Below, piece by piece: positions 2,891 to 14,052 of a DNA stretch of 64,000 bases. The position numbers and the translations under genes were made by a program. Origin of the DNA: Chloroflexota bacterium (GTDB lineage: Bacteria; Chloroflexota; Anaerolineae; Aggregatilineales; J027); contig JABFGB010000001.1 in assembly GCA_013112715.1 (NCBI GenBank), positions 186,001-250,000 on the forward strand, in the 5' to 3' direction. The notes beneath the pieces are model-generated. The model did not search any database and was not told the DNA's origin. It saw only the letters and a program-made list of their open reading frames with translations. Within the stretch, counting starts at the first letter, position 1; each line of letters starts with the position of its first letter.

Positions 2891-5089
2891 TTACGCCATA
2901 GTCTGTTCGCTGTAATAGCGGATAAAGCGCTCAATCGCTTCGGGTTCCAACAAACGCCCCGGCGCGGTAATGCTATAACTGCTAGCCCACACCGACCCAT
3001 ATACCTGCGGGTCTTGGCCTAGCGCCTCCAATAAATAGCGATTGGTCTCGCCCATCAAGATGTCCATCATCTCGGCAGGCTGCGCTTTGACAGGAATTTC
3101 GACGTGAACATTTACCCACAACTCCCCCACCCGAACATCCACAAAATCCCAATCCTGCTCGCTAGCGACTTTTTGCAGCCAATAGCCGAGGGGTTCGCTA
3201 TAATCCACTAAGTGGATATTGGGCGCTTGCAATAACCACAAACACGCAAAACCGGCATAGCTTCCCGGCTCCCGCACAGTCGGGCCAGTCTTCACCTCGC
3301 GCAGTCCAGCAGGTGCTTTTAGGTCAGTGGGGCGGCTGTGTTGGGTGGGGACATCTTCCTCGATAATGGTTGCTGTCTGTTCGACCATTTCAGGCGAGGC
3401 TGGCACATGCACTTCATCTGTATGGGCAGTTTTCTCAGGAATCAGCATCAGGGCCTCGGTCAATTGGGCCACCTGCTTGCGAATCATGCGCACAGGCAAA
3501 TCCCCGGAAAATACTAGCGTCAGCGTCAAATCATCCACACTGCGCACACTGAACAACAGGCATTGCCCATAGCCTTCCAGATGCAGATAACGCATTCGGG
3601 TATTATTTTCGCCCTCACGGTGCCATGCCATCAACACCGCTTGAACAATTTCGTGCCATATGTCGCTCGAAAAATTGCCCGTGCGCCCCACTGGATAATC
3701 ATGATGCGTCAGCAAAATCCCCAGCGCCGAGTTCTCTAACGAAAGCTGGGTGAGTTGCAATGCGGCCCGTGCAATCACATCCATCTCCCCCAACATTTCC
3801 TCCACCGCCGCCTCATCAACCGGCAGTAATTCGGTTTCGGGTAGCGTTGCCTCTGAATATTGATCGGGCAGCACCATCGCCTGTGTAACTTCCTCTAGGG
3901 TGGTAGGAACTAACTCAGCCTCATCTATCACCGTCTTCATGCTATCCGTGCCGGTTTTGGAAAGCACCGCATATAAACGTGGGTCTTGGTCACTTTCGGC
4001 TTCGGCAAGGGCTTCCAGCAGTTCCACATTAATCGGGCCAGAATCATGACTTGGCCCTTGCAGCCACTCAATTTCTTCCCGGCTCAACGGGTCGGGGATT
4101 AAATCAAATTCCGGCAGCAGGATGGGCTGAGTCACCGCGAGATAGGGCGTCGTATCATATTCTTTCGGTTCAAATAGGTCGGGGTCTATCGGTTGCAGGC
4201 GCTCTCCCGTTTTTTCTAATAATTCCTCAACCGTTGTTGGGGAGGGATGCAGCGCCTTGAGGAGTTCGCCCAGATAAGCCCGTTCTTCTTTGGTGCGCGG
4301 CTTTAACCATGAGGGCAAAGGCCGAATTTGAGGCTGTCCGCTCTGCTGCGAAAGCTGTTCAATACGCATCAGGACTGTATCCAATGGCGTGGCTTCATTT
4401 TCGGTAATACGCAGTGCCGCCGCCGCCATCGAGCCTGTGTTTTCTCCTACCTCTACCGCTCGAGTGGCTAGCGGACTGCCAACAGATTCAGGTGAGGTGG
4501 GTAGCACCTGTTGACTTTCGTTAGCTTCATGGCCTCCCAAAATCTCCGCGACGACTGCCGGGTCTTGTAACAATTCCAGCACCCGCCCCACCGTCGCACC
4601 TTCATCAATCGGCGGTTCCGGGTCAATCGCTTGCATCATCGCGGCCTCAACCACTGTCTCGATTGGGACAACATTATCTCGACGGATAGAAGATTCATTG
4701 GCCTTGTTGCGTAGATTGGAGTAAAAATCATAGCCCTGTTTAATGGCATGTTCAATCAATTGGGCTAAATCTCGTGCTACATAAGGTTTGTGGGCATATC
4801 CTTGTACATCCAACGCGGGCACACGGTCGGGGTCATTTGGCGTACTACCCGACACAATAACGGGCAAATCCGGTTGGCGCACCCGCATCCCCAAAATGAG
4901 TTCCGCAGGGTCGCCATGTTCAAGGTGCAAATCCACCACCGCAACCGAATACCGTTGTTCATCAAGCGCCGAAAGGGCTGGACGTGAGCGGCCCATGGCC
5001 CGGACATCAAAATCTAACTCCTCAAGAGCTTTTTTTAGCCGCAGAATAAACCCAATATCCGAATCTACAATCAAAACCCGCCGTGTCAT
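2891..5089 (-). CDS. Response regulator with C-terminal Y1 transposase-like domain
   Basis: 732 aa. Residues 1-115 are a CheY-like receiver: VLIVD, phospho-acceptor Asp53 in VVDLH, and Lys101 in AHKPY. Residues about 115-420 are acidic, low-complexity and unassigned. Residues about 440-560 (ARAALQLTQLSLENSALGIL onward) resemble a roadblock/longin-type fold. Residues about 610-732 match the layout of IS200/RAYT-type Y1 transposases: a WLLQAPN strand in place of the usual KYR segment, an EQDWDF helix end, a WVNVHVEIPVKAQPAEMM core, a GETNRYLLEA helix, a WASSYSITAPG strand and a final RYYSEQ helix. The HUH metal motif is changed to NVH (660-662), but the C-terminal Tyr725 and Gln729 positions are kept. 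Inference: a domesticated nucleic-acid-binding output rather than an active transposase. The gene is monocistronic. Confidence 0.8.
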   Translation of the reverse strand: MTRRVLIVDSDIGFILRLKKALEELDFDVRAMGRSRPALSALDEQRYSVAVVDLHLEHGDPAELILGMRVRQPDLPVIVSGSTPNDPDRVPALDVQGYAHKPYVARDLAQLIEHAIKQGYDFYSNLRNKANESSIRRDNVVPIETVVEAAMMQAIDPEPPIDEGATVGRVLELLQDPAVVAEILGGHEANESQQVLPTSPESVGSPLATRAVEVGENTGSMAAAALRITENEATPLDTVLMRIEQLSQQSGQPQIRPLPSWLKPRTKEERAYLGELLKALHPSPTTVEELLEKTGERLQPIDPDLFEPKEYDTTPYLAVTQPILLPEFDLIPDPLSREEIEWLQGPSHDSGPINVELLEALAEAESDQDPRLYAVLSKTGTDSMKTVIDEAELVPTTLEEVTQAMVLPDQYSEATLPETELLPVDEAAVEEMLGEMDVIARAALQLTQLSLENSALGILLTHHDYPVGRTGNFSSDIWHEIVQAVLMAWHREGENNTRMRYLHLEGYGQCLLFSVRSVDDLTLTLVFSGDLPVRMIRKQVAQLTEALMLIPEKTAHTDEVHVPASPEMVEQTATIIEEDVPTQHSRPTDLKAPAGLREVKTGPTVREPGSYAGFACLWLLQAPNIHLVDYSEPLGYWLQKVASEQDWDFVDVRVGELWVNVHVEIPVKAQPAEMMDILMGETNRYLLEALGQDPQVYGSVWASSYSITAPGRLLEPEAIERFIRYYSEQTMA

Positions 5090-5278: not shown

Positions 5279-7042
5279 TTAGCCGCGAGCAGCCAACTTG
5301 GCAGCCATATCAATGCTGTACGCACCCCAGTGAGCGCCGCCGAACAGGCCGTCGGTCTCAAATGGGCCAGTGTACCATGGCTTGAACAGGCTGAAGCCGG
5401 AGCGCAGGAAGATCGGGGCAATTGGGAATTCACCTTCTTCGCCGAAGAATGCCTCTTCAACTTCCGCATACAGTTGTTCACGGACAGCCGGGTCACTTTC
5501 GCGGGCAGCCTGATCAATCAGGTCGTCCACTTCGGTGCAGGGGCGCATGAAGTTGTAGTCAACATTGCAGGACAGCACGTCATGTACCCAGTTGTTGGCG
5601 TCACCATAGTCAGGACCCCAGCCGAGTGTCCAAGCATTCGGACGATCCTGCGTGGGGGTCTTGGAGTCAACGACTTCCAACAGAACCGAGAATTCGAGTT
5701 GTTCGGTGTTGAACAGCGCGGGATCGCAACCGAGATATTCTTCAGCAGCGGCAGCCCAGAATTCAACCCATGTGCCAGCACCAGTGTAGGCAACGAGGTC
5801 AATGTTCGGGAAGCCTTCGCAGTTGGGATAACCAGCGGCTTCGAGTTGGGCAACCGCGTATTCGGGGTTGAAACCAACACCGACTTCATTGATGGGTGGC
5901 GCACCAGCCATACCGGGCGGGGTGAAGTGAATCATTGGCACACCACGACCACCACGAATTTGTTCCACAAACGCGGCGCGATCAATGATGGCGCTGAAGG
6001 CACGGCGGGCGTTTACATTGTCGAACGGCGCTTTGTCATGAGCATAGCCGAAATAGAACACAGCGAGGTCGAAGATTTGCAAAACTTGTTGAGACAGAAC
6101 TGGGTCGTTCAACACGTTTTGAATTTCAGCAGTGGGTACGCCCGTCGCATCCAGTTGATTGTCAAGGAAGAGGGCATAGGTGGTACCGCCGTCCTCAATG
6201 ATGGTCTGGTTGATGACTTCGATATTGCCGGTGCCGCTGAACAGATCAGCCGGGAGGGCTTCATTACGCATAAACACGCGGCGCACGCCACGAGTAATTT
6301 CGTCAACGAAGTATGGGCCATTGGTGATGATGTTGCCGGGGGCAGTCCATTCGTCACCGAATTCTTCAATGCCTTCCTGCGGCACAGGGCGGATCATCCA
6401 CATGGGGGTCATGGACAGGAAGAAACCAGCGGCGAATTGCAGTTCAATCACGACAGTGGTGTCATCCGGGGCGCTGACCTTGGTGGTGTCGCCAAAAACG
6501 AGGTCGTCAGTTACGGATTCGCTGGCGGTCTGATTGACCACATCGCAACCCGCAATTACGGTCGCCGCAATCGAGCCATAGTAGCTGCCCAAACGAGGAT
6601 CGCAAGCACGCTTGATGCCGTACACAAAGTCACCCGCGACAACGGGCCGCACGACGGTGGCGGTATCGCTGGCCGGGTCCCACTTCATCCAGTTGACATC
6701 GGTGCGGAGGCTGAACGTCCAAGTCAAACCATCGGCGCTGGCTTCCCAAGTCGTCGCCAGTTCGGGGGTAACCGCGCTGGTGATGGGGTCATAGTTGGTC
6801 AGGCCGAGGAACAGGTTTTCAATAGGGGTGATCGAAACAGTGTCAGACGCCAGAACCGGGTCGAGCGAACTAATTTCGCTGCTGTCGGCAGTATCACGGG
6901 TGACAGGTTCATCCTGACGATATTGAGCCGTAATGGTAATCTCGCTGTCGGCGGCGGCGGCAAAGCCGGTCGGCAGCAGAGCAACCACCATCGTCAGCAC
7001 CACGGCGACGACTGGGATCATCCGAAAGACTTTCTTTGACAT
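5279..7042 (-). CDS. Family 5 ABC transporter substrate-binding protein 1
   Basis: 587 aa. The start is the ATG at 7042, 8 bases after AGGAGGA; 8 extra upstream codons are rejected. A Sec signal peptide (MSKKVFR, hydrophobic core, LLPTGFAAA) has no lipobox cysteine, so the protein should be released or held by something other than a lipid. The mature protein is an SBP_bac_5 (OppA/DppA/NikA-like) peptide-binding fold, with SSEISSLDP near the start, ENLFLGLT, a GPYFVDEITRGVRRV segment and an APFDNVNARRAFSAIIDR segment typical of the family. It is the last of six tandem paralogues. No permease or ATPase gene lies in the window. The ligand is probably an oligopeptide, but this is inference from the family. 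Confidence 0.93.
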   Translation of the reverse strand: MSKKVFRMIPVVAVVLTMVVALLPTGFAAAADSEITITAQYRQDEPVTRDTADSSEISSLDPVLASDTVSITPIENLFLGLTNYDPITSAVTPELATTWEASADGLTWTFSLRTDVNWMKWDPASDTATVVRPVVAGDFVYGIKRACDPRLGSYYGSIAATVIAGCDVVNQTASESVTDDLVFGDTTKVSAPDDTTVVIELQFAAGFFLSMTPMWMIRPVPQEGIEEFGDEWTAPGNIITNGPYFVDEITRGVRRVFMRNEALPADLFSGTGNIEVINQTIIEDGGTTYALFLDNQLDATGVPTAEIQNVLNDPVLSQQVLQIFDLAVFYFGYAHDKAPFDNVNARRAFSAIIDRAAFVEQIRGGRGVPMIHFTPPGMAGAPPINEVGVGFNPEYAVAQLEAAGYPNCEGFPNIDLVAYTGAGTWVEFWAAAAEEYLGCDPALFNTEQLEFSVLLEVVDSKTPTQDRPNAWTLGWGPDYGDANNWVHDVLSCNVDYNFMRPCTEVDDLIDQAARESDPAVREQLYAEVEEAFFGEEGEFPIAPIFLRSGFSLFKPWYTGPFETDGLFGGAHWGAYSIDMAAKLAARG

Positions 7043-7102
7043 TTTTAAGCTCCTCCTAGAGAGCATCTTAAAACTTTTTATGTATTCAACTCATCATTGT
7101 CC

Positions 7103-7133
7103 GGGTTTGTCCGGCCTTCTGCCCCGGTAGCAT
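7103..7133 (-). promoter_or_regulatory. Leader block shared by SBP1 and SBP3
   Basis: On the plus strand this block reads gggtttgtccgg, then a variable stretch, then tgccccggtagcatg. The same pattern (gggttggtccgg, variable stretch, tgccccggaaagcatg) occurs at 11503-11534, also about 60 bases upstream of a binding-protein start. The surroundings are poorly conserved, which suggests a protein- or RNA-level regulatory element. Confidence 0.4.
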
Positions 7134-7590
7134 GGGTAGGCGTCGAGTGCGGCTGTTGCTCCTTTCTTAAAACCGTTGGCGCTTGGCTTCCAATGGTTGT
7201 ACAGGCTTACTTGCCAGGACAAGTCAAGGCTACAACCAGTTGGGTTGGGGACTCTTTGTAGAGAAAGGGAGTGTAGTGGGGAATTGGAATGGAAAGAGGG
7301 CAACAAGCTGTCCCTGCAATCCCAAAATGAACTTTCCGTGGCCCCATCAAAATAACTATTTCTCACAAAAGTAGGAAGCACAAGTCCACTAAATTTAAAT
7401 TTGTACTACAGGACTCACTCGATGCTGATATAAATTATAGCGATGTACACCGCTAGAATGCAAATGGTTCGCCACATTAGAGATTTTTAATCTACACCGT
7501 TTTTTAATAAAAGCCCTAATTTAAGCCGTAAATCGAATAATGTGAAGATTTATTTTGGGTCAACCTTACCACCCCAATTAAAGTACAACC

Positions 7591-7629
7591 AATAAAAATC
7601 CCCTCCACCATTCAATAGCTGAGGGGATT
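7591..7629 (-). terminator. Terminator of solute-binding protein 2
   Basis: AATCCCCTC (7597-7605) pairs perfectly with GAGGGGATT (7621-7629). On the minus strand the stem is followed by TTTATT. It lies 47 bases past the stop codon of SBP2. Confidence 0.8.
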
Positions 7630-7675
7630 GCGGGATGGAATCAAACCCACCCGTTGTTATTTTTAGCTGGCTCGG

Positions 7676-9454
7676 TTATTCACCACGCGCTGCTAACTTG
7701 GCCGCCATATCAATGCTGTACGCGCCCCAATGTGGGCCACCAAATAGGCCGTCGCTTTCAAATGGGCCGGTGTACCACGGCTTAATCAAATTGAAGCTGG
7801 TATCCATGAAGATAGGCGCGATGGGGTAGTCTCCCTCTGGCCCAAAGAAGGCTTCTTCAATTTCAGCATACAGTTGATCGCGCACCGATGGATCAGATTC
7901 ACGGGCCGCCTCGTTAATGAGGTCATCCACTTCGGTGCAGGGGCGCATAAACGCATTATCGGCGGTGCAGGATAACACATCATTCACCCAGTTGTTGGCA
8001 TCACCATAATCTGGTCCCCACCCCAACGTCCAAGCGTTGGGACGGTCTTGGGTTGGTGTATCGGCATCAATGATTTCCAACAGCACTGAAAATTCAAGCT
8101 GCTCGACATTAAACAAGGAGGGGTCACAACCGAGATATTCCTCAGCCGCCGACGCCCAAAAGTCCGCCCAATTGCCAGCCCCGGTATACGTTGCCATATT
8201 GACGTTCGGGAAGCCTTCGCAGTTGGGATAGCCCGCTGCTTCCATTTCGGCCTTCGCATATTCGGGATCAAACCCGACACCAATTTCGTTGATAGGCGGA
8301 GCATGAGCCATACCGGGCGGAGTGAAGTGAATCATCGGAATAGCACTGCCACCCAAGACCTGATCAATGAAGGCTTGACGGTCAATCACCGCTCCAAAAG
8401 CCCGCCGTGCATGTTCATTATCAAAGGGGGCCTTGTCGTGACCAAAGGCAAAATAATAGACCGAGAGCGCAAAAATTTGAATCACCTCTTGGGAAAGTTC
8501 GGGGTCCCCCAAAATATTTTGCAGTTCCGCCGAAGGCACACCGGAAGCATCCAGTTGATGATTGAGATAGAGCGAATAGATCGTGCCGCCGTCTTCAATG
8601 ACCTGCTGATTGATAATCTCAATATTGCCCGTGCCGCTAAACAGATCGGCGGGTAGATTTTCATTACGGACAAACACACGCCGCACACCACGAGTCAGTT
8701 CATCTACTAGATAGGGGCCATTCGTTACAATGTTACCGGGGGCCGTCCATTCATCCCCAAATTCCTCAATAACTTCCTGTGGGACGGCGCGGAGCATCCA
8801 CATGGGGGTCATCGAGAAGAAAAAGCCTGCGGCAAATTGCAATTGGACTACGAGTGTCGTGTCATCGGGCGCACTCACGGCAATTGTATCACCATAAACG
8901 AGATCATCCGTCACCGACTCAGTGGGGGTCTGATTAACCACATCACAACCCTTGATGACCTTCGCGGAAATCGTGCCGTAGTAACCGCCGAGACGAGGGT
9001 CGCAGCCGCGTTTAATGCCATACACAAAGTCGCTTGCGACCACCGGACGAACAATGGTGGCGCTGTCACTGGCTGGGTCCCAACGCAGCCAATTAACATC
9101 GGTGCGTAGGTTGAATGTCCACGTCACATTGTCGGGTGCAATCGTCCATGAAGAAGCTACCTCTGGATTGACTGCACTGGTAACCGGGTCATAGTCCGTC
9201 AGACCGAGAAATAGATTCTCGATAGGGGCAATCGAAACCTGATCTGAAGCAATTTGTGGGTCAAGGGAGCTAATTTCGCTGCTTGCCGCCGTGTCACGCT
9301 GCACGGGGACATTTTGGCGATAGAGCGCTACCACTGTTACTTCCGCATCACTAGCAGATGCGAAACCGACCGGCAACATGGCCGTGACGAGTGCCAACAC
9401 CAGTAATGAGGCTGGCATCAGTCTAACAATTCTTTTTACCACTTCTCTATTCAT
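7676..9454 (-). CDS. Family 5 ABC transporter substrate-binding protein 2
   Basis: 592 aa. The ATG at 9454 follows TTCAGGAGA. The signal peptide (MNREVVKRIVR, hydrophobic core, LPVGFASA) again has no lipobox. It shares with its neighbours the SSEISSLDP start, the IENLFLGLTD motif, a WTAPGNIVTNGPY segment and the C-terminal LFGGPHWGAYSIDMAAK block. The hinge and peptide-cleft regions are full length, so it should be functional. It has its own terminator and a long upstream gap, so it is probably transcribed separately from the other copies. Peptide binding is inferred from the family; the paralogues may differ in ligand. Confidence 0.93.
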   Translation of the reverse strand: MNREVVKRIVRLMPASLLVLALVTAMLPVGFASASDAEVTVVALYRQNVPVQRDTAASSEISSLDPQIASDQVSIAPIENLFLGLTDYDPVTSAVNPEVASSWTIAPDNVTWTFNLRTDVNWLRWDPASDSATIVRPVVASDFVYGIKRGCDPRLGGYYGTISAKVIKGCDVVNQTPTESVTDDLVYGDTIAVSAPDDTTLVVQLQFAAGFFFSMTPMWMLRAVPQEVIEEFGDEWTAPGNIVTNGPYLVDELTRGVRRVFVRNENLPADLFSGTGNIEIINQQVIEDGGTIYSLYLNHQLDASGVPSAELQNILGDPELSQEVIQIFALSVYYFAFGHDKAPFDNEHARRAFGAVIDRQAFIDQVLGGSAIPMIHFTPPGMAHAPPINEIGVGFDPEYAKAEMEAAGYPNCEGFPNVNMATYTGAGNWADFWASAAEEYLGCDPSLFNVEQLEFSVLLEIIDADTPTQDRPNAWTLGWGPDYGDANNWVNDVLSCTADNAFMRPCTEVDDLINEAARESDPSVRDQLYAEIEEAFFGPEGDYPIAPIFMDTSFNLIKPWYTGPFESDGLFGGPHWGAYSIDMAAKLAARGE

Positions 9455-9574
9455 GGGTTCTCTCCTGAAAATACTAAAGAATCACGAAAAATTGTACTGG
9501 ATACCCCAATTTGGCACAAAAGGTTCAATTCGTTTAAGATTTTCTCATATAGGGAAACATCCCCAAAAACACAA

Positions 9575-9609
9575 ATCCCCCCGGTGCAGCAAATCTCGCG
9601 CGGAGGGAT
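9575..9609 (-). terminator. Terminator of solute-binding protein 3
   Basis: On the minus strand ATCCCTCCG (9609-9601) pairs with CGGGGGGAT (9583-9575) with one mismatch, followed by TTGTGTTTTT. It is the second of two hairpins after the gene, the same arrangement as after SBP1. Confidence 0.65.
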
Positions 9610-9623
9610 CGGTGGTTAGAGTC

Positions 9624-9667
9624 CCCTACCCTGCCGTCATCATCTACGGGCGATGGCAGGGTTAGGG
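9624..9667 (-). terminator. Long hairpin directly after solute-binding protein 3
   Basis: CCCTA (9624-9628) and CCCTGCC (9629-9635) pair with TAGGG (9663-9667) and GGCAGGG (9655-9661), with one bulged T. It starts 17 bases past the stop codon and has no T-run, so it may protect the mRNA end ahead of the terminator at 9575-9609. Confidence 0.5.
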
Positions 9668-9683
9668 AATCACTTAGTTCAGT

Positions 9684-11450
9684 TTATTCACCACGCGCTG
9701 CCAACTTCGCAGCCATGTCAATGTTGTAGGCACCCCAGTGAGCGCCACCAAACAGACCGTCGCTCTCAAATGGGCCGGTGTACCACGGTTTCACCAATGT
9801 AAAGAACGAACGCAGATAGATTGGGGCAATCGGGTATTCACCTTCTGCGCCAAAGAACGATTCTTCGATTTCGGCATACAGTTGGTCACGCACCGCTGGG
9901 TCACTTTCGGCAGCGGCCTGATTGATCAGGTCGTCTACTTCGGTGCAGGGACGCAGGAAGGCGTTGTCCGAGGTGCAGGATAGCACGTCGTTCACCCAGT
10001 TGTTGGCGTCACCATAGTCGGGACCCCAGCCGAGTGTCCAAGCATTCGGACGATCCTGTGTGGGGGTGTTGGGGTCAACGATTTCCAACAACACGGAGAA
10101 TTCGAGTTGTTCAACATTCAACAACGAGGGGTCACAGCCGAGATATTCTTCAGCAGCGGCAGCCCAGAAGTCCGTCCATGTACCAGCACCCTGATAAGCG
10201 ACCATATCAATCGCTGGGAAGCCTTCGCAGTTGGGATAACCCGCCGCTTCCATTTCGGCAACGGCGTATTCTGGGTCAAACCCAACACCGATTTCGTTGA
10301 TGGCCGGGGCATGAGCCATACCGGGTGGGGTGAAGTGAATCATCGGCACACCACGGCCAGCCAACACCTGTTCAATGAACGCTTGGCGGTCAATGATGGC
10401 GCTGAAAGCACGACGCGCATGAACATTGTCAAAGGGGGCTTTGTCATGACCGAAACCGAAATAGAACACGGTCAGGTCAAAGATTTGCAGCACTTCTTGG
10501 GACAATGTGGGGTCAGACAACACATTTTGGATTTCTGCCGCAGGCACACCGGAACTGTCGAGTTGGCTGTTTTGATACAGCGCATAGATCGTACCGGCGT
10601 CTTCAATCACGGTGGTGTTAATGACTTCTACATTGCCAGTACCGCTGAACAGATCAGCAGGCAGGGCTTCGTTGCGAACATACACACGACGCACACCACG
10701 AGTGATTTCTTGCACGAAGAATGGGCCGTTCGACACGATATTGCCGGGGGCGGTCCATTCGTCACCGAATTCTTCAATGACCTCTTGTGGGACAGCGCGG
10801 AGCATCCACATGGGGGTCATCGAGAAGAAATAACCAGCGGCGAATTGCAGTTCGACCACGAGGGTCACGTCATCAGGGGCGCTGACGGCAATTGTTTCAC
10901 CGTAAACCAGATCATCTGTCACGTTTTCGGCAACCGTTTGGTTGACCACATCGCAGCCCTTAATGACCTTGGCGGAAATCGTACCGTAGTAACCACCCAA
11001 ACGGGGATCGCAGCCGCGCTTAATGCCATAGACAATATCGCCTGCCACCACTGGGCGCACGACAGCGGCGGTTTCGGTTGCCGGGTCATACCGCATCCAG
11101 TTAACATCACTGCGCAGGTTGAAGGTCCATACCAAACCGTCGGCGCTCACTTCCCATGAAGTCGCCAATTCGGGGTTAATCGCGCTGGTAATTGGGTCAT
11201 AGTCTGTCAGACCAAGAAACAGATTTTCAACCGGAATAATCGAAACGCTGTCAGAAATGATCGCTGGGTCAAGTGAGCTAATTTCACTCTGGCTTGCCCC
11301 GTCAATCGTAACAGGCGTATCCTGACGATATTGGGCCACAACGGTAACGGTGGCATCTTCCGCAGCCGCAAAGCCCGTCGGAAGTAATGCAACCACCAGT
11401 GTCAGCACAATCGCTGCGACTGGGATGAGTCGAAAAGTGGATTTAGACAT
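9684..11450 (-). CDS. Family 5 ABC transporter substrate-binding protein 3
   Basis: 588 aa. The start is the ATG at 11450, preceded by AGGAGGGG; 8 further upstream codons are dropped. The signal peptide MSKSTFRLIPVAAIVL with LLPTGFAAA closely matches that of SBP1, and the mature sequences look like the closest pair in the cluster. It has the family 5 binding-protein fold at full length, with ISSLDP, VENLFLGLTDYDP, VHARRAFSAIIDR and the C-terminal HWGAYNIDMAAKL block. There is no lipobox cysteine. The leader shares a conserved block with SBP1. The likely substrate is an oligopeptide or similar compound, by family only. Confidence 0.93.
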   Translation of the reverse strand: MSKSTFRLIPVAAIVLTLVVALLPTGFAAAEDATVTVVAQYRQDTPVTIDGASQSEISSLDPAIISDSVSIIPVENLFLGLTDYDPITSAINPELATSWEVSADGLVWTFNLRSDVNWMRYDPATETAAVVRPVVAGDIVYGIKRGCDPRLGGYYGTISAKVIKGCDVVNQTVAENVTDDLVYGETIAVSAPDDVTLVVELQFAAGYFFSMTPMWMLRAVPQEVIEEFGDEWTAPGNIVSNGPFFVQEITRGVRRVYVRNEALPADLFSGTGNVEVINTTVIEDAGTIYALYQNSQLDSSGVPAAEIQNVLSDPTLSQEVLQIFDLTVFYFGFGHDKAPFDNVHARRAFSAIIDRQAFIEQVLAGRGVPMIHFTPPGMAHAPAINEIGVGFDPEYAVAEMEAAGYPNCEGFPAIDMVAYQGAGTWTDFWAAAAEEYLGCDPSLLNVEQLEFSVLLEIVDPNTPTQDRPNAWTLGWGPDYGDANNWVNDVLSCTSDNAFLRPCTEVDDLINQAAAESDPAVRDQLYAEIEESFFGAEGEYPIAPIYLRSFFTLVKPWYTGPFESDGLFGGAHWGAYNIDMAAKLAARGE

Positions 11451-11502
11451 TTTGGCCCCTCCTGGAGAGCGCAATTTATCTTAAGAATCGAATTTTTTGG
11501 GT

Positions 11503-11534
11503 GGGTTGGTCCGGTCAGTTGCCCCGGAAAGCAT
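11503..11534 (-). promoter_or_regulatory. Leader block shared by SBP3 and SBP1
   Basis: This is the counterpart of the block at 7103-7133: gggttggtccgg and tgccccggaaagcatg on the plus strand, 50-85 bases upstream of the SBP3 start. Two CCGG cores in each copy are separated by about 10 bases. Confidence 0.4.
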
Positions 11535-11896
11535 GTCAAAAGTTGAAATGTTGGTGGCACACCTTTCTCCTGATTGGTAACGTACCTTACATCGGGTGAG
11601 GTTTTACACAACATATACATGGGGGACAGTTTGGAAGTTCAAGGAATTTTTGAGGGAATCGCATCGAGCGAATTCGGTTTCCTAGAAACAAGAGTTGTTT
11701 CCAAACCGCACACACTTCAATTGAATTGCAGGGCAACTCAATGTAATATTGTTAAAAACTCACTGATGCAATTAATGAAGATTATAGGAAGGGTTCACCC
11801 ATTGTCGAGAAATATCAGAGATCTCTAACGTCTCTATGGTTTTGTTAAATCGTCGAACCAGATGCAATTTTCAGACGTACATGCAATTAGAAATGC

Positions 11897-11925
11897 AAAG
11901 AGGGTTTGCCAGGACAGCCCTCTTT
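11897..11925. terminator. Bidirectional hairpin terminator upstream of SBP3 region
   Basis: AAAGAGGG (11897-11904) pairs with CCCTCTTT (11918-11925), followed on the plus strand by further T residues. It is the second hairpin encountered after SBP4 on the minus strand. Confidence 0.6.
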
Positions 11926-11945
11926 TTGCCTCATAAAAGGCAAAA

Positions 11946-11972
11946 GGAGTAGGCGGGTTATGCCCCTACTCC
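11946..11972 (-). terminator. Terminator of solute-binding protein 4
   Basis: GGAGTAGG (11946-11953) pairs perfectly with CCTACTCC (11965-11972). On the minus strand it is followed by TTTTGCCTTTT. It lies about 85 bases past the SBP4 stop codon. Confidence 0.7.
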
Positions 11973-12056
11973 TCATCAATTACAAAATGACAATTCTATG
12001 GCCTGCCTATCTCATAATGAGGTTAGGCTTTATTGTACTGACCACTGGTTTAGTGT

Positions 12057-13823
12057 CTATTCGCCGCGTGCCGCTAACTTCGCGGCCATATCAATCGTAT
12101 AAGATCCCCAGTGAGCACCACCAAACAACCCATCTGTTTCAAATGGGCCAGTGTACCATGGCTTAAAGAGACTGAACGCGGAACTTAGGAACAGTGGCAC
12201 AATCGGATAATCCCCATCCGGGCCAAAAAATGCCTCTTCGATTTCGGCATACAACTGGTCACGCACCGTCGGGTCGGTCTCGCGGGCGGCCTGATTCAAA
12301 AGGTCATCCACTTCGGTGCAGGGTCGCAGGAAATTATAGTCTGCCGTGCAAGACAGCACATCGTTGACCCAATTATTGGCATCGGCATAATCCGGCCCCC
12401 ACCCCAACGTCCACGCATTGGGGCGATCTTGCGTAGGCGTCTCGTTATCAATGATTTCCAGCAGTACCGAAAATTCAAGCTGCTCGGTATTAAACAGGGT
12501 GGGATCGCAACCGAGATATTCTTCGGCAGCGGCAGCCCAAAAATCGGCCCAATTGCCTGCCCCTTGATAGGCGGCAATATTGATATTCGGGAAACCTTCA
12601 CAATCGGGATAGCCTGCGGCTTCTAGTTCAGCAACGGCATAGTCGGGGTCAAAGCCAACGCCGATTTCATTGATGGCCGGGGCATGAGCCATACCGGGCG
12701 GCGTGAAGTGGATCATCGGCACCCCTTGACCGCTGGCAACCTGCTCCACAAATGCTTGCCGATCCACAATCGCGGCAAAGGCCCGACGCGCATGGACATT
12801 ATCAAAGGGCGCCTTGTCATGGGCAAAGCCAAAATAATAGACGCTCAGGGTGAAAATTTGGCGAACCTGCTGCGACAATTCAGGATCAGCCAATACATTC
12901 TGCAATTCCGCTGGGGGCACACCCGCCGCGTCATGCTGATGATTGAGATACAGAGCATAGGCTGTCCCAGCATCTTCAATCACGCTGTAGTTGACCACCT
13001 CAAGGTTGCCGTTGCCGCTGAATAGGTCTAAAGGCAGGGCTTCATTACGCACATAGACCCGCCGCACACCGCGTGTAATCTCATCCACAAAATAGGGGCC
13101 ATTGGTGACGATGTTGCCGGGGGCTGTCCATTCATCGCCATAATCTTCAATGGTTTCCTGTGGGACGGCCCGCAACATCCACATAGGAGTCATGGAGAAG
13201 AAATACCCAGCGGCAAATTGCAGTTCGACCACCACCGTCACATCATCTGGCGCACTGATTTTGACTGTATCGCCAAACACCAGATCATCAGTCGTGGCTT
13301 CGGCACTGGTCTGATTCACAATATCGCAGCCCGCGATCACTTTGGCGGCAACTGAAGAACCATAATAGTTGCCGAGACGACCATCACAGGCCCGTTTGAT
13401 GCCATACACAAAGTCGCCTGCCACCACCGGACGCACAACTGAGGCCGTTTTGCTGGCGGGGTCATAGTGCATCCAATTGACATCCGAGCGCAAATGGAAT
13501 GTCCATGTCAGACCATCTTGGCTCACTTCCCAACTAGTCGCCAGTTCAGGATTGACCGCACCCGTCACGGGGTCAGAATCGGTCAAACCCAAAAACAGAT
13601 TTTCAATCGCGGTAATCGAAAGCGCGTCGCTGGCAATGCCGGGGTCAAGTGAACTGACCTCATCTGGGGATGATGTATCACGAGACACGGGAACATCTTG
13701 GCGATAGAGCGCCGCAATCGTGATAGTGCTGTCGGACGCCGAGGCAAAGCCTACTGGGAACAGCACGACCACCATCGTAAAAATTACAATCAATACGGGC
13801 AACAATCGAATCTTTAAACTCAT
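12057..13823 (-). CDS. Family 5 ABC transporter substrate-binding protein 4
   Basis: 588 aa. The ATG at 13823 lies 8 bases after AGGAGGA; 16 extra codons upstream lack support. Signal peptide MSLKIRLLPVLIVIF, then LFPVGFASA, no lipobox. The mature protein keeps the cluster-wide landmarks: EVSSLDP, IENLFLGLTD, GNIVTNGPYFVDEITRGVRRV, VHARRAFAAIVDR and the C-terminal HWGSYTIDMAAKLAAR. Compared with its neighbours it has a one-residue insertion in NYYGSSVAAK, where the others read YYGTISAK or similar. Two terminator-like hairpins follow. Substrate by family: peptides. Confidence 0.93.
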   Translation of the reverse strand: MSLKIRLLPVLIVIFTMVVVLFPVGFASASDSTITIAALYRQDVPVSRDTSSPDEVSSLDPGIASDALSITAIENLFLGLTDSDPVTGAVNPELATSWEVSQDGLTWTFHLRSDVNWMHYDPASKTASVVRPVVAGDFVYGIKRACDGRLGNYYGSSVAAKVIAGCDIVNQTSAEATTDDLVFGDTVKISAPDDVTVVVELQFAAGYFFSMTPMWMLRAVPQETIEDYGDEWTAPGNIVTNGPYFVDEITRGVRRVYVRNEALPLDLFSGNGNLEVVNYSVIEDAGTAYALYLNHQHDAAGVPPAELQNVLADPELSQQVRQIFTLSVYYFGFAHDKAPFDNVHARRAFAAIVDRQAFVEQVASGQGVPMIHFTPPGMAHAPAINEIGVGFDPDYAVAELEAAGYPDCEGFPNINIAAYQGAGNWADFWAAAAEEYLGCDPTLFNTEQLEFSVLLEIIDNETPTQDRPNAWTLGWGPDYADANNWVNDVLSCTADYNFLRPCTEVDDLLNQAARETDPTVRDQLYAEIEEAFFGPDGDYPIVPLFLSSAFSLFKPWYTGPFETDGLFGGAHWGSYTIDMAAKLAARGE

Positions 13824-14052
13824 TTGCAAGATCCTCCTTAGTTGAATGAATGGGACAGCGTGAGGACTCACTTGCCGTAAAACGGGGTACGCAGATTTTA
13901 TGCAGAAACACGGAGAAAGGTTGTAAAGGTAGAGTTTTTCTGATCTATTATAAAATTTGTCAAAATAGTGAACTTATGGCTAATTCAAGGGGTACTTATG
14001 TAAAATTACCCCTTACCATTTGCGTGCCCAAAAAGTTCAAACAGGTTTCTAC

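Follow-up and report, generated by a model that had tools for sequence, protein, structure and literature searches.

A conserved receiver-Roadblock protein family of Anaerolineae with a C-terminal, apparently non-catalytic Y1 transposase-like domain

The window (the whole stretch of 64,000 nucleotides of Chloroflexota DNA analysed here) contains an uninterrupted open reading frame of 732 codons at 2891-5089 on the minus strand. Pfam searches, AlphaFold2 modelling and comparison with relatives showed that its 732-residue product consists, from the N- to the C-terminus, of a receiver, an acidic linker, a Roadblock/LC7 domain, a second linker, and a domain resembling the Y1 transposases (TnpA) of the IS200/IS605 type. 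On balance, and with some reservation, we favour the reading that this is a conserved receiver-Roadblock/LC7-Y1-like family in which a non-catalytic Y1 fold forms part of a dimeric regulatory adaptor. The original prediction for this gene had the outline right (a receiver and a Y1 fold), but its residue details and its description of the domain as decayed did not stand, and the Roadblock/LC7 domain at about residues 441-552 had been missed. The features of the gene are as follows.

2891-5089, minus strand: whole gene, 732 residues (ORF list; relatives with the same architecture).
4736-5089, minus strand: receiver, residues 1-118, with D9/D11, Asp53 and K101 (Pfam Response_reg, E 1.9e-9; alignment; residue check).
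3770-4735, minus strand: low-complexity acidic linker, residues 119-440, net charge -41 (charge calculation; dN/dS 0.09-0.11).
3434-3769, minus strand: Roadblock/LC7 domain (MglB-like), residues 441-552 (AlphaFold2 match; Robl_LC7 in relatives; strong conservation).
3269-3433, minus strand: variable linker from the Roadblock to the Y1-like domain, residues 553-607 (pLDDT <50; dN/dS).
2906-3268, minus strand: Y1 (IS200/IS605 TnpA)-like domain, residues 608-728, its catalytic residues lost (profiles; structure match).
3110-3118, minus strand: HUH-motif columns, W658-V659-N660 (alignment with HUH-intact TnpA).
2975-2989, minus strand: family-conserved W-A-x-x-Y, residues 701-705, corresponding to 'lW..sY' of TnpA (W and Y columns invariant).
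2924-2926, minus strand: catalytic-tyrosine column, Phe722 (alignments; residue check).

When the window protein was searched by itself, Pfam Y1_Tnp (PF01797) matched residues 634-724 with 21.4 bits (cut-off 23; E 2.8e-4), and NCBIfam transpos_IS200 scored 25.5 bits, which is below its curated cut-off of 55. Taken alone, the Y1_Tnp score of the window sequence is suggestive. PF01797 matched 20 of 21 members singly (best E 1.3e-19), and several relatives passed the Pfam cut-off. A family profile (A1), made from the aligned C-terminal domains of 21 relatives, matched the solved IS200 TnpA structures 2f4f (E 2.4e-20) and 2ec2 (E 1.8e-19), Deinococcus 2fyx and ISDra2 (E about 1e-15), and IS608 (E about 2e-11; 2.2e-11); in this search of solved structures nothing besides TnpAs came below E 0.06. 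An AlphaFold2 model of residues 437-732, computed with 30 relatives, contained two largely confident cores and a disordered linker between them (pLDDT <50), the relative placement of the two domains not being confident (pTM 0.45). The C-terminal core matched TnpA in Foldseek (E 5e-7) and was superposed onto it by VIA-align with Z 14.1 (3.1 A, 108 residues), in agreement with the predicted Y1 fold. Since the A1 profile and the AlphaFold2, Foldseek and VIA-align comparisons all match TnpA, the Y1_Tnp similarity is not due to chance. As judged from aligned profiles and a predicted structure, the C-terminal domain was shown to descend from an IS200/IS605-type Y1 transposase fold.

To locate the catalytic residues, we used HMM alignments and a MAFFT alignment with HUH-intact TnpAs of Chloroflexota. 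W658-V659-N660 occupy the HUH columns of the window protein, and a residue check placed Phe722 in the tyrosine column and Tyr726 at the position of the Gln (+4). The predicted catalytic loss was thereby confirmed at other residues than those named: the 'NVH' at 660-662, read as the HUH motif, lies two residues downstream of the true columns, and Tyr725 and Gln729, regarded as a kept catalytic pair, are three residues off. An intact HUH was present in none of about 95 family sequences (38 and 59 further ones, the second set including two repeats of contigs from the first). The commonest forms in the HUH columns were Y-u-Q, Y-u-Y and F-u-Y, and the tyrosine column held Phe in 44 of the 59 sequences of the second set; in the comparison set of 15 Chloroflexota TnpAs, HUH was kept in all 15 and Tyr in 14. 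The first His is kept by a few family members (HVE, HLV, HLQ), and most members of f32, a large family, have Tyr in the tyrosine column and Gln in the second HUH column. These alignments indicate that the family has lost the metal-binding HUH pair and that most of its members have lost the nucleophilic Tyr. An active nuclease was considered and rejected by the column analysis, the window protein having W and N in the two His columns and F in the Tyr column. The protein is encoded by one copy in its genome, and no PF01797 match over threshold was found in that genome.

In comparisons of the window gene with four relatives, the dN/dS of the Y1-like domain was 0.042-0.055, close to that of the receiver and the Roadblock domain. 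The linkers gave 0.06-0.38, the variable linker (residues 553-607) being highest in most comparisons. Decay of the domain was rejected on these values, which correspond to strong purifying selection, and the W and Y columns of W-A-x-x-Y are invariant in the family alignment. The same ORF was found at 95-97% identity in close genomes and at 78% in a more distant one; the whole-protein scan of the genome collection yielded near relatives only, and distant ones were obtained by searching genome by genome. When 298 Anaerolineae genomes were searched with loose criteria, further members came up in many other genera. The fused ORF (at least 420 residues, domain E <=5e-23) was present in 137 of 397 genomes of Anaerolineae (Chloroflexota), the class covered by the distribution search, according to a hand count of rows; homologues with the receiver fusion, which the original prediction had proposed to look for in Chloroflexota, are accordingly widespread in this class. 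Internal stops were absent from nearly all the long ORFs with the Y1-like domain. A plasmid search with the Y1-like domain gave zero matches. In an unrooted tree with several long branches, a 100/99 branch parted the family, together with its short paralogues, from the HUH-intact TnpAs and a set of Clp-linked proteins; the branch to the window genus, whose Y1-like domain is strongly diverged, was long (2.05 changes per column). On these sequence comparisons, we regard the proteins as an old conserved family of Anaerolineae with a Y1-like domain under strong purifying selection.

The N-terminal receiver with Asp53 was found as predicted: Pfam Response_reg matched the window protein with E 1.9e-9, the phospho-acceptor Asp53 is present, and the alignment showed that Asp9, Asp11 and Lys101 are retained as well. 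Phosphorylation control of the window protein is plausible from these residues. Many members have degenerate receivers: families f2 and f32 have lost the acidic pair, and f2 has lost the Lys as well. No histidine kinase was recognised adjoining the window gene. The first modelled core was superposed onto MglB/Roadblock with Z 14.0 (AlphaFold2 and VIA-align; 2.5 A, 112 residues). Pfam Robl_LC7 gave no match in the window protein and weak matches in receiver-Roadblock relatives (E 0.001-0.006), and the loci examined contained no recognisable Ras-like GTPase gene. Elsewhere in the genome there are a small Ras/Roc-type GTPase ORF (G000:C43:2714-3091; L123) and two stand-alone Roadblock proteins (G000:C6 and C4; L125 and L126), which are possible partners of the Roadblock domain.

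The net charge of the Y1-like domain was -10 in the window protein and averaged -1.7 over the family, as against a mean of +5.9 in HUH-intact TnpAs (p 5e-8 by the Mann-Whitney test, in which related sequences are counted singly). Within the window lineage and the order containing it, the domain is mostly acidic, down to -17, whereas HUH-intact TnpAs range from +3 to +9. Net charge is a crude proxy for nucleic-acid binding; for the window lineage, the acidity of the domain makes plain nucleic-acid binding less likely, a consideration with less force in f32, where the domain is mildly positive (+1 to +5). TnpA and Roadblock proteins are known as dimers in their families. The domain charge and the degenerate receivers of many members lead us to favour a dimeric adaptor, and we infer that the protein would act as such in regulation. 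The receiver may be phosphorylatable in some lineages and is probably a constitutive pseudo-receiver in others; it would alter how a Roadblock dimer and a Y1-like dimer are arranged, and the Y1-like domain would dock on a protein partner and cut no DNA. The Y1 fold may thus have been retained as a structural, docking or dimerisation module.

The main rival to the adaptor is a Y1-like domain that no longer cuts but has retained binding to single-stranded DNA or RNA hairpins, perhaps at polA or its transcript. TnpA recognises hairpins, its fold is kept, the gene adjoins polA in most relatives, and the f32 domain is mildly positive; the strong acidity of the domain in the window lineage and in the order to which it belongs weakens this reading, and receiver-Roadblock proteins without a Y1-like domain are found at polA too, so the location needs no such domain. 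We consider hairpin binding possible but doubtful. Of the original proposal of a domesticated single-strand DNA or RNA binder, the domestication holds up, and the net charge makes the binding less likely in the window lineage. The domain could also be supposed to be a decayed relic, now drifting, of a transposase that had landed at the 3' end of a gene for a response regulator, as the loss of both catalytic sites and the long branch to the window genus would allow. This can practically be discarded in view of the dN/dS of 0.04-0.055, the invariant W and Y columns, and the presence of the domain in 137 genomes within long ORFs, nearly all of these without internal stops. It is very unlikely that the domain remains enzymatically active through a shifted or atypical active site (HuQ-like variants, a displaced Tyr): the Tyr and Gln of most f32 members and the first His of HVE, HLV and HLQ would fit such a site, but two His ligands and the Tyr occur together in none of the members checked, the tyrosine column is Phe in most of the second set, and the window protein has W, N and F.

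Among the roughly 95 members checked, about 64 (26/38 and 38/59) have polA as the next gene downstream on the same strand, with about 7-500 nt separating the two. Several families of the class share this pair but differ in the genes upstream of it, and in some members one or more genes intervene. This linkage suggests a pathway touching DNA replication or repair in most lineages. It could also reflect shared gene order only, the protein being unrelated to DNA polymerase I, a view that concerns the polA inference alone and is compatible with the adaptor reading. Intervening genes in some members, and the absence of immediate linkage in the window genus and its neighbours and in families f4 and f5, speak for shared gene order; against it are the preservation of the pair over families with different upstream genes and the 26 of 38 adjacencies, whose binomial chance under random placement is negligible, although that null ignores shared descent. 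We give shared gene order a substantial chance, if somewhat short of an even one. That a dead IS200/IS605 fold was domesticated as the output of a Roadblock response regulator working with DNA polymerase I, where it might, for example, recognise lagging-strand structures or dock on the replication or repair machinery under signal control, seems unlikely. The polA of the window genome is on another contig, flanked by unrelated genes and without the family gene beside it, and polA was not adopted as an explanation of the window gene; with the linkage missing in the window's own lineage, it cannot by itself explain this gene.

Shorter receiver-Roadblock proteins that lack the Y1-like domain are encoded immediately before polA in further Anaerolineae families, which suggests that the Y1-like domain was added to, or lost from, an older gene at this place. 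Receiver genes of this kind were located at L136 4242-5048, L137 4348-5247, L139 352-1152 and L153 4233-4991, the L136 gene also having a Roadblock domain.

With the IS200/IS605 TnpAs (2f4f, 2ec2, ISDra2 2xm3, IS608 2vhg), the family shares the fold, the order of secondary-structure elements, the 'lW..sY' strand and a core of about 120 residues. Unlike them, it has no HUH, mostly Phe for Tyr and, in the window lineage, an acidic domain, and the window-type protein is fused to a receiver and a Roadblock domain, is present in a single genomic copy, and has a conserved place in most relatives. TnpA-REP proteins (RAYTs; PMC8266576, PMC6006769) share the Y1 fold and are likewise host genes and not insertion sequences, but they retain HuH/Y, whereas the present family is without both and has signalling domains in addition. 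In RAYTs, the known domesticated Y1 transposases, the nuclease is kept; here the fold appears to have been kept and the chemistry discarded. The Roadblock fold is shared with MglB-type Roadblock/LC7 proteins (Z about 14), but in the present family it follows a receiver and precedes a Y1-like domain. An N-terminal receiver is also found in response regulators with unusual output domains; in the family, unlike in those, no DNA-binding HTH or enzymatic output was recognised, and many members have lost the acidic pair and the Lys. The phylogenomic survey of TnpA-Y1 (2018) uses the HuH/Y core to define its family and nowhere mentions a response regulator or receiver in its text (PMC6006769). A review of recruited mobile elements showed no such case among the terms searched (PMC8987985). 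As the original prediction had stated, no described family with the receiver-Roadblock-Y1-like architecture was found in the open-licence literature, though reports elsewhere are possible. The family would thus represent a dead Y1 fold joined to signalling and Roadblock modules, spread over a large bacterial class and often located beside polA.

A second set of HUH-less Y1-like genes, encoding 135-172 residues, was observed at L109 7052-7516, L111 7284-7742, L115 7584-7988 and L116 7209-7724. Each adjoins a ClpC/ClpE-like ATPase gene, and 'PDRVY' stands in the HUH columns where these were read. As the four sampled proteins nest within the HUH-intact TnpAs, they probably represent an independent domestication, and since they lost the HUH pair in an unrelated context, this loss alone says little on function. 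The receiver-Roadblock-Y1-like family and this apparently independent loss together offer an experimentally testable example of a transposase fold recruited as a regulatory module.

The window gene lies downstream of genes that we take, from their sequences by eye, to encode ABC-type substrate-binding proteins, and is convergent with what is presumably a glutamate-dehydrogenase-like gene, named from its sequence without a search. Scanning for promoters and terminators yielded nothing informative. The upstream region (window 5279-13830) contains four tandem paralogues of about 590 residues, by eye of the ABC-type (peptide/solute) substrate-binding kind. Short HUH-less paralogues of the Y1-like domain (about 170-195 residues) are present in f32 at L084 7974-8525, L085 7971-8513 and L102. 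The surroundings of the L084 and L085 paralogues include response regulators, a putative histidine kinase, a TPR gene and an Mrr-type nuclease-like gene, the last three annotations coming from L085.
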